64,000 bases of DNA from an uncultured Tateyamaria sp. (GTDB lineage: Bacteria; Pseudomonadota; Alphaproteobacteria; Rhodobacterales; Rhodobacteraceae). How positions within the stretch are numbered: the first letter of the stretch is position 1; the number at the start of each line of letters is the position of its first letter. The stretch spans positions 310,001-374,000 of the forward strand of contig NZ_CANMEU010000002.1 in the NCBI RefSeq assembly GCF_947497045.1. The letters run 5' to 3'. Made by a program: the position numbers and the translations under genes. A model generated the notes under the pieces. The model searched no databases. It was given only the letters and a program-made list of their open reading frames with translations, and was not told the origin of the DNA. Of the stretch, positions 23,434 through 55,670 are shown in pieces.

Positions 23434-23438
23434 CCTGT

Positions 23439-24392
23439 TCAGGCGAGGTTCAGCTTTTTCTGCCGGGCGGCCCGCAACCGCGCAAAATCGTCACCCGCAT
23501 GATAGGACGAACGGGTCAGCGGCGTGGCCGAAACCATCAAGAACCCCTTGCCATAGGCCGCCTTTTCATAGGCTGCAAATTCGTCCGGATGCACAAAGCG
23601 ATCCACCCGGTGGTGTTTGGGGGTTGGCTGCAAATACTGACCGATAGTCAGGAAATCGATGTCGGCGGCGCGCATGTCCTCCATGACCTGCATGACCGAT
23701 TGGCGATCCTCACCAAGGCCGACCATGATGCCCGATTTGGTGAACATGGACGGGTCCAGTTCCTTGACCCGTTGCAGCAGGCGCAGGGAATGGAAGTAGC
23801 GCGCGCCCGGTCGCACCTCGGGATAAAGGCCCGGTACGGTTTCGAGGTTGTGGTTGAACACATCGGGGCGCGCATCAACAACGACCTCCAGCACACTGGG
23901 ATCACAGCGAATAAAATCTGGTGTCAGGATTTCGATGGTCGTATCGGGGCTGCGATGGCGAATGGCGCGAATGGTCTGTGCAAAGTGATCCGCCCCACCA
24001 TCCTTGATGTCATCGCGGTCCACGGACGTGATGACCACATGGTTCAAGCCCAGCTTCTCAACCGCATGGGCCACACGGCCCGGCTCGAACGCATCCAGAT
24101 CTTCGGGCGGTTTTCCGGTGGCGATGTTGCAGAACGTGCAGGCACGGGTACAGACCTCACCCATGATCATCATCGTCGCGTGGCCTTGGGACCAGCATTC
24201 GCCCACATTGGGACACCCCGCCTCTTCGCAGACCGTCACAAGGTTGTTGTCGCGCATGATCTTGGCAGTGTCGGTATAGCCTTGGCCACCGGGGGCCTTG
24301 ACCCTGATCCAGTCGGGCTTCTTGGGCTGCGGATTGTCAGGACGGCGCGCCTTTTCAGGATGGCGCTGTTCGGGAATTTTCAAATCGCGCAT
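23439..24392 (-). CDS. lipA: Lipoyl synthase
   Basis: 317 aa radical-SAM enzyme that inserts two sulfurs into octanoyl groups on lipoyl domains. The auxiliary cluster motif [12 protein letters not shown], the radical-SAM motif CTRACTFC and the C-terminal RSSYHAG serine motif are all intact. The conserved start is MRDLKIPEQ at 24392. The track's earlier GTG would overlap the neighbouring membrane protein gene. Confidence 0.96.
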
Positions 24393-48723: not shown

Positions 48724-50118
48724 ATGACGGCCCACCCTGAGTTTCCCGATATGCCGCAATTGAATGCACTTGCACAGGCGGCTTCTGCACTCGGGTATGA
48801 AATTGTTGATATCGCGGGCTTTCTCGACATGGTCGAGGCGCAGGCCCGCGATCAGCGCGCCGCCCTTTCCGCGCTTGAGCGGGAAAGCGGCGCGATCGAA
48901 ACCGCCAATGATGCCGCGCAAGAGGCGGCAAGCGATCTTGGGCACAGCGTGGCGCGCACATCCGAAGATGTCAGCCACTCCGCCGCTTTAGTCCGCGCGT
49001 TTGGCACCCAATCGCGCGAAGTCGCGACATGGGTCCAGGGGCTGTCCGACCGCAGCGGTGAAGTGGCTGAGACATTAAAGGCCGTGAAATCCAACAACTC
49101 GCAAATTGCAGCGATCTCGATGCAGGTGAACACCCTCGCTATCAACGCCAAGATCGAAGCGGCCCGCGCGGGCAAAAGCGGGCGCGGCTTTGCCGTGGTC
49201 GCCGAGGCCATCAATGAGCTGTCGCAAAAGACCAAAGCGGCCGCCGCACAAATTTCCACCAATATCGAAACACTGACCGGGTGGATTTCGGCCCTTGGGA
49301 TCGAAGCGCGGGATGTGGCCGAAAGTGCTTCAAAACTGATGGAACACAGCACCCAGACCGACCAGGCGCTCAGCCGGATGGAGCAATCCGTTGGCGACAC
49401 AAAATCTCAAGCCGACCGCATCGATATTGAGACAAGGAAAGTGCGCGCCGCCGTCGAATTATTCGCACCCGACATGAAAGAGATCGGCAGCAGTATCGTG
49501 GCCACCACCGATGGGATCAAACAGGCCCATGCCCGGATTGAACGGCTGATCGACACGTCCGAAGAAATTGTGCAATCCACCGCTGACCTTGGTGGGCTGA
49601 CGGATGATGCGCCCTTTGTTGAGCATGTGCGCGCGCAGGCCGCAGCTATCACAAAGGTGTTTGAAGGTGCCATCGATCAGGGCAAAATCAGCGTTCAGGC
49701 CCTGTTTGACCGCACCTATGTGCCCATTCCGGGCACGGCCCCCGAACAGGTGCGTACTGCCTATGTCGACCTGCTCGATACTGTGTTGCCCGCAATTCAG
49801 GAACCGGCACTCACCTTCGATCCAAGGGTGGTGTTTTGTGCGGCGGTCGATGTGAATGGATATCTGCCGACGCACAATCGCAAATTCTCACAACCTCCGC
49901 GCGACGATATCATCTGGAATACCGCCCATTGCCGCAATCGGCGCATTTTCAATGATCGGGTGGGCCTGAAGGCCGGGCGCAGCACCGCACCGTTCCTGTT
50001 GCAAGTGTATCGGCGCGATATGGGCGGCGGCCAATATATGATGATGAAGGACCTATCGGCCCCGATCACCGTACGGGGACAGCATTGGGGGGGCTTGCGA
50101 CTAGCCTATATGTTTTAA
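48724..50118 (+). CDS. Soluble methyl-accepting chemotaxis protein with C-terminal sensor domain
   Basis: 464 aa without TM segments or signal peptide. The N-terminal 290 residues are coiled coil with the receptor hairpin tip (QVNTLAINAKIEAARAGKSGRGFAVVAEAINELS), and residues 300-464 form a Cache/PAS-like domain (FNDRVGLKAGRSTAPFLLQVYRRDMGGG). The order, signalling domain first and sensor last, is the reverse of classic receptors. It probably senses a cytoplasmic cue and feeds CheA. The start may instead be ATG 48751, since TATACT at 48704 would leave a very short leader. Confidence 0.85.
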   Translation: MTAHPEFPDMPQLNALAQAASALGYEIVDIAGFLDMVEAQARDQRAALSALERESGAIETANDAAQEAASDLGHSVARTSEDVSHSAALVRAFGTQSREVATWVQGLSDRSGEVAETLKAVKSNNSQIAAISMQVNTLAINAKIEAARAGKSGRGFAVVAEAINELSQKTKAAAAQISTNIETLTGWISALGIEARDVAESASKLMEHSTQTDQALSRMEQSVGDTKSQADRIDIETRKVRAAVELFAPDMKEIGSSIVATTDGIKQAHARIERLIDTSEEIVQSTADLGGLTDDAPFVEHVRAQAAAITKVFEGAIDQGKISVQALFDRTYVPIPGTAPEQVRTAYVDLLDTVLPAIQEPALTFDPRVVFCAAVDVNGYLPTHNRKFSQPPRDDIIWNTAHCRNRRIFNDRVGLKAGRSTAPFLLQVYRRDMGGGQYMMMKDLSAPITVRGQHWGGLRLAYMF

Positions 50119-50137
50119 CCTGTTGCCCTCTTTACCC

Positions 50138-50174
50138 AAAAAAAAACGCCGCACATCCTGTAAGGATGGCGGCG
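50138..50174 (-). terminator. Intrinsic terminator downstream of the small membrane ORF
   Basis: On the minus strand CGCCGC plus CATCC-loop-GGATG plus GCGGCG (11 bp with one bulge) is followed by nine T's. The only minus-strand gene it can serve is the 42-aa ORF ending at 50322; about 150 nt of 3' UTR lie between and hold a further CCCCCC/GGGGGG hairpin. Confidence 0.88.
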
Positions 50175-50321
50175 CAAGGAAAGCGTGTCTTGCGGGGGGC
50201 AGATCCGTCACCCCCCGAGGCAATTGGGGGGATCCGTAAACGACAGGCAGAGCCGGTTACGAAGGAGAGCGCCAATTTGGGACGGGCGCAAAGAGGATCA
50301 AGGCAAGTACGCAGGCAGTAA

Positions 50322-50450
50322 TCAGATCAAAGAAGGCAGATGCAGACCCACCACCAGCATCACCATCAATGCCGCCGCCCCAAGCGCATCCTGAAGCAAT
50401 GTCGCTTCGGCCCGGGTGGCAATCTGTTTGATGTGGTGCAGCGTGGTCAT
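50322..50450 (-). CDS. 42-aa single-TM protein behind an SOS box (candidate SOS-induced small membrane protein)
   Basis: This ORF is below the 60-aa track cut-off. It starts at ATG 50450 with GGAG eight bases upstream and ends with TGA at 50322. The product begins MTTLHHIKQIATRAEATLL (amphipathic, basic) and continues QDALGAAALMVMLVVGLHLP, a clear membrane helix, ending SLI. A GAAC-N7-GAAC box lies 60 bp upstream and an intrinsic terminator downstream, so it looks like an independent transcription unit between recG and the chemoreceptor gene. By arrangement it resembles Caulobacter SidA, a tiny LexA-controlled inner-membrane division inhibitor, or a TisB-type toxin. I do not claim sequence homology to either. 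Confidence 0.72.
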   Translation of the reverse strand: MTTLHHIKQIATRAEATLLQDALGAAALMVMLVVGLHLPSLI

Positions 50451-50509
50451 ATCAGCGTCTCCGTTCCTGAAGTTGCCTCTTTGTTCTCATATTCTTAACA
50501 ATCCGTAAA

Positions 50510-50524
50510 GAACTTTTTAAGAAC
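50510..50524 (-). promoter_or_regulatory. LexA (SOS) box GAAC-N7-GAAC
   Basis: GAAC-TTTTTAA-GAAC exactly matches the alphaproteobacterial LexA consensus (GTTC-N7-GTTC on the minus strand). A second pair with a 6-base spacer, GAAC-TTTTTA-GAAC, lies at 50531-50544. Both are in the promoter region of the 42-aa ORF. Confidence 0.65.
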
Positions 50525-50551
50525 ATTTGTGAACTTTTTAGAACAAACGCG

Positions 50552-55622
<5,071 letters not shown>

Positions 55623-55655: not shown

Positions 55656-55670
55656 GAACTAAACGTGAAC
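55656..55670. promoter_or_regulatory. LexA-type box GAAC-N7-GAAC upstream of ctrA
   Basis: GAAC-TAAACGT-GAAC, 34 bp before the ctrA start codon. It is an exact match to the alphaproteobacterial SOS box. Single matches arise by chance at about one per window, so it rests on its position. Confidence 0.5.

Follow-up and report, generated by a model that had tools for sequence, protein, structure and literature searches.

A small membrane-protein gene with LexA-type operators and a structured RNA domain follows recG across a mostly marine alphaproteobacterial family

Directly after recG in a Tateyamaria genome, within the 64,000-nt stretch of DNA analysed here (the window), lies a small transcription unit whose gene, judged by its distribution among sequenced genomes, belongs to the core genome of one large, mostly marine alphaproteobacterial family, the Roseobacter group and its relatives. 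The gene, its conservation, the selection on its coding sequence, its operators and the structure of the attached RNA can each be read from sequence comparison. The best overall explanation, which we hold with slightly better than even confidence, is a LexA-repressed unit that would produce a small inner-membrane protein acting on a specific partner, with the late divisome favoured, together with an RNA domain. By analogy with known inhibitors, the gene is a strong candidate for the family's DNA-damage brake on cell division. It is also an immediate one, as a single-copy gene of more than 100 genera that stands behind conserved LexA operators and in no family library checked; the RNA domain attached to it is conserved too and corresponds to no Rfam family. 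The features of the unit are collected in Table 1.

Table 1. Features of the unit and its neighbour in the window
Feature	Position	Strand	Remarks
Structured 3' RNA domain	50138-50321	minus	Closing stem; arms bearing GUCCC and CUGCCU loops; terminator at the end; covariation
Intrinsic terminator	50138-50174	minus	3' end of the RNA domain
Small ORF MTTLHHIKQIATRAEATLLQDALGAAALMVMLVVGLHLPSLI	50322-50450	minus	42 codons plus stop, ATG at 50450; predicted single-helix, N-in membrane protein
Shine-Dalgarno GGAG	50459-50462	minus	8 nt 5' of the ATG; read directly from the sequence
Operator O2 GAACAAAGAGGCAAC	50472-50486	minus	GAAC-N7-CAAC, inverted relative to O1; conserved in the family
Probable -35 element TTTACG	50504-50509	minus	Adjoins the inner half-site of O1; from the alignment, putative function
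Operator O1 GAACTTTTTAAGAACA	50510-50525	plus	GAAC-N7-GAACA; GTTC-N7-GTTC in the direction of the gene
Two more GAAC half-sites	50531-50544	plus	10-bp spacing (GAAC-N6-GAAC); from the locus alignment
recG	50552-52663	minus	Pfam RecG domains; synteny; conserved upstream same-strand neighbour, outside the unit

A small gene conserved throughout one family

A preliminary description of the window had proposed a 42-codon minus-strand ORF with its ATG and GGAG, a strong intrinsic terminator, a GAAC-N7-GAAC box (50510-50524) and a further GAAC pair with a 6-base spacer, and each of these elements lies where it was placed. Its account of the extent of the unit holds for the parts that it listed, but it lacked both the second, inverted operator and the RNA domain.

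When 196 relatives were searched in six frames, most genomes of the family proved to encode the protein, and in 101 of the 106 related loci fetched the ORF stands directly 3' of recG on the same strand. A profile search detected the protein in 279 of 296 genomes of the order (112 of 113 genera); about 237 genomes of other families yielded no match. Matches to RecG in named genomes put the window in Tateyamaria or next to it, and the unit is also seen in Ruegeria, Sulfitobacter, Leisingera, Roseovarius, Shimia, Marivita, Salipiger and others; the gene occurs in single copy and in conserved position almost throughout its family. Five of the genomes without a match proved on checking to hold diverged copies behind the same promoter (G020, G066, G077, G266 and G376), one of them from g24, the genus that accounts for most of the misses. 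The one true loss of the ORF among the no-match genomes checked is in G443. At this locus (L208, C2:410329-410348), the promoter after recG and a terminator are kept, but the ORF has been lost, as has most of the RNA domain.

Loci within the genus indicate purifying selection on the ORF (pN/pS 0.19; median dN/dS about 0.12), with 72, 35 and 204 substitutions at codon positions 1, 2 and 3, respectively; the other two reading frames gave ratios above 1 in the same comparison. These loci are closely related, and comparison across the whole family carries more weight; the counts given here are uncorrected for relatedness. Synonymous and non-synonymous sites thus diverge unequally and the ORF is retained in relatives, two of the points on which the preliminary description had staked its proposal. 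A chance ORF beside a chance box in an intergenic gap could appeal to the box pattern, which by itself shows no excess in the window or the genome (counts below), but this reading is already refuted by conservation, given the low dN/dS, the invariant residues and synteny over more than 100 genera. These comparisons confirm that the small gene is real and far more widely conserved than could be seen from the window.

The family members are 40-42 aa long. Across 101 aligned ORF sequences, Asp21 is invariant (101/101), Gly24 is present in all but one (100/101), and Leu28, Leu36 and Pro39 are near-invariant. Hydropathy and charge predict one hydrophobic stretch with positive charge on its N side in every one of the 101 sequences, and AlphaFold2 models the 42-aa protein as a single helix over residues 3-41 (pLDDT 92), in agreement with the clear transmembrane (TM) helix noticed earlier. 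The product is thus a predicted small single-TM protein, almost certainly located in the inner membrane. Searches of Pfam, NCBIfam, PHROGs, PADLOC and PDB returned no family match, only isolated weak matches from single members. A second, partial protein match in the genome itself (E = 0.003) was taken as chance.

Conserved operators resemble those of lexA, recA and imuA

The O1 box occurs at a nearly fixed place in 98 of the 101 loci and in 74 of 80 further loci, so that GTTC-N7-GTTC is conserved together with the ORF; the preliminary description had suggested looking for exactly this, alongside the search for homologues in relatives. It is followed by a conserved TTTAC, replaced by TTGAC in some genera. 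The second half of O2 is CAAC rather than GAAC in most genera. The inner of the two extra half-sites (50531) is conserved, and the outer one is kept mostly within the genus.

Counted alone, the pattern is unremarkable: the 64-kb window has three copies of GAAC-N7-GAAC where 1.64 would be expected, and the genome has 98, compared with 154 of a reversed control pattern. Because it is enriched in neither, a single box is no evidence by itself; the box rises above chance because it is conserved with the gene. The third match in the window (23437-23451) has a GC-rich spacer and is probably a chance occurrence. A genome search found no other site closely resembling the O1 promoter.

As yardsticks, we took the lexA (GAACGTCCGTAGAACA) and recA (GAACACAATGGGAACA) operators of the same genome, both of which are conserved across the genus, and set beside them that of imuA (GAACAAAAGAGGAACA), which lies 22 nt 5' of the ATG of imuA, the first gene of an imuA-imuB-dnaE2 operon. 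GAAC-N7-GAACA is common to O1 and all three, and O2 resembles the imuA and recA operators. In addition, the recA promoters (L174-L197) carry a conserved GTTC-N7-GATC upstream of their GAAC-N7-GAAC operator, inverted in the same manner as O1 and O2; the inverted arrangement therefore has a parallel. Since O1 and O2 are conserved and like the lexA, recA and imuA operators, the LexA-type control proposed in the preliminary description is well supported by comparative sequence, and the unit is very probably bound by LexA and induced by DNA damage.

The same gene and RNA might instead answer to another regulator, such as an OmpR-family response regulator acting on the GTTC repeats, and serve in envelope stress or the cell cycle rather than in the SOS response. 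Three to four GTTC motifs spaced 10/10/11 bp apart have the periodicity of OmpR-family sites, and because of this spacing an OmpR-type regulator stays a minor rival. The O1 spacer is also very strict, more conserved than LexA alone should need, and the O1 promoter is unique in the genome; this uniqueness, however, argues against the motif of a global regulator. Set against the GAAC-N7-GAACA that O1 shares with the genome's own lexA, recA and imuA operators and the likeness of O2 to the imuA and recA operators, control by another regulator seems quite unlikely.

Elsewhere in the window, a GTTC-N7-GTTC pair (55656-55670) stands 34-48 nt upstream of a gene for a ctrA-like response regulator (54903-55622, minus strand). 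Of 12 members of the genus, 10 keep the pair and two have GTTC-N7-TTTC instead; beside it lies a conserved TTAACCTTTTC. The pair may represent a link of LexA to the cell-cycle regulator CtrA.

A study of Dinoroseobacter shibae predicted LexA sites at lexA, recA, dprA and others, and recG is absent from its main text; we found no description of the present locus in the literature, and the supplementary lists of that study may hold an unnamed site here.

A structured RNA domain at the 3' end

The region from the stop codon of the ORF to the terminator tail is predicted to fold into a conserved multi-hairpin domain with repeated CUGCCU and CUGUCC motifs. Its closing stem is CUUGC/GCAAG here and CUCAUG/CAUGAG or CUCGUG/CACGAG elsewhere. 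The consensus fold of 26 diverse sequences exceeds those of column-shuffled alignments in stability (z = -11.2), and compensatory double changes occur at 20 of 32 pairs. A coarser alignment (A2) gave double changes at 11 of 12 pairs; a covariance model (R1) built from a wide alignment retained only 12 pairs.

Apart from the terminator, conservation is highest in unpaired motifs. CTGCCT was counted 172 times where 12 were expected, and TGTCCC 120 times where 14 were, the shuffles here keeping base composition only and not dinucleotides. A generic anti-Shine-Dalgarno reading of the loops is disfavoured, as CCTCCT was counted 5 times, where composition-only shuffles predict 16.6. Rfam contains no family for the RNA domain of the window or of the relatives' loci. 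The sX13 and Atu_C7 families scored far below cut-off on the window, and matches to Ysr141 in relatives lay elsewhere in the loci and were also far below cut-off.

The shared promoter and terminator suggest that ORF and RNA are carried on one transcript. Because four loci (L016, L070, L118 and L124) apparently have the ORF without the RNA domain, the protein seems to be the more durable part. We give the domain about an even chance of having a regulatory role.

The transcript could even act chiefly as a regulatory RNA and yield the small protein as a second product, as in SgrS/SgrT, its CUGCCU/CUGUCC loops pairing with mRNAs or binding a protein in the SOS response. Strong covariation and the concentration of conserved letters in the unpaired motifs counted above would suit such an RNA, but the ORF is under strong selection and apparently stands without the RNA in the four loci just named, and the RNA may be merely a protective 3' untranslated region; we regard a primary role for the RNA as doubtful. 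Similarly speculative is a family-wide, LexA-controlled dual-function transcript, in which a membrane-acting division regulator would be joined to a multi-arm CUGCCU/CUGUCC RNA that tunes other genes post-transcriptionally during the SOS response. Covariation does point to a conserved structure on a coding transcript, one mark of a dual-function RNA. The present unit resembles SgrS/SgrT and Pos19, a dual-function RNA of Rhodobacter sphaeroides (PMC5036791), in that a single transcript has a small ORF and may also function as RNA; it differs from them in its LexA-type promoter, in the position of the RNA domain 3' of the ORF and in a multi-arm CUGCCU/CUGUCC structure that Rfam does not include.

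A candidate brake on cell division

In the mechanism that we favour, the unit would be transcribed on its own after recG under two inverted LexA operators, one over the -35 region and one over the start region. DNA damage would activate RecA, leading to cleavage of LexA and to a transcript of about 350 nt, which would encode the 40-42-aa inner-membrane protein (N-in, with a very short periplasmic tail) and end in the structured RNA. The protein would most likely act via a specific membrane partner, the late divisome being favoured after the example of Caulobacter SidA, and division would be held back until repair is done. Inhibition of division by the small protein, as a late-divisome inhibitor, is a tentative assignment by analogy, to which we give somewhat less than an even chance.

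Caulobacter crescentus provides two precedents: SidA (29 aa), which is induced in the SOS response, binds FtsW and inhibits division, and DidA, a 71-aa single-TM protein that is SOS-independent, acts via FtsN and is activated by DriD rather than LexA (PMC4211646). In Bacillus, the SOS single-TM protein YneA is described as acting with FtsW (PMC13396833). On these examples, SOS division inhibitors repeatedly take the form of small single-TM proteins acting on the late divisome. Compared by features rather than by sequence, the present unit shares with SidA its LexA-type operators, a tiny single-helix inner-membrane protein and an alphaproteobacterial host, the small single-TM form being predicted here by hydropathy and charge over 101 sequences and by AlphaFold2. 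It differs from SidA in the length of its product, its recG neighbourhood, its structured RNA domain and its confinement to another family. DidA is likewise a small single-TM protein linked to DNA damage, but it is longer and is activated by DriD, whereas the operators here are of LexA type.

Escherichia coli TisB/IstR-1 offers a different model, again with a small hydrophobic protein behind a LexA operator and a structured transcript. On this model, the product would be a type I toxin, an SOS-induced membrane-depolarising peptide slowing cells and promoting persistence; the LexA-type operators, the small hydrophobic peptide and the structured mRNA are all consistent with it. Type I toxins are, however, usually patchy in distribution and often multi-copy, whereas this gene is single-copy, syntenic and nearly universal in its family. 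There is also an invariant polar residue at the start of the helix, the Asp that precedes the near-invariant Gly, and no antisense partner was found, a simple sigma-70 consensus scan, itself weak, having detected no promoter-like site in 50050-50700. We consider a TisB-like toxin very unlikely. Because the gene is present family-wide in single copy and has invariant residues at the start of the helix, action on a specific partner is favoured over a pore toxin, and for the same reasons division inhibition is favoured over a TisB-like role for the small protein.
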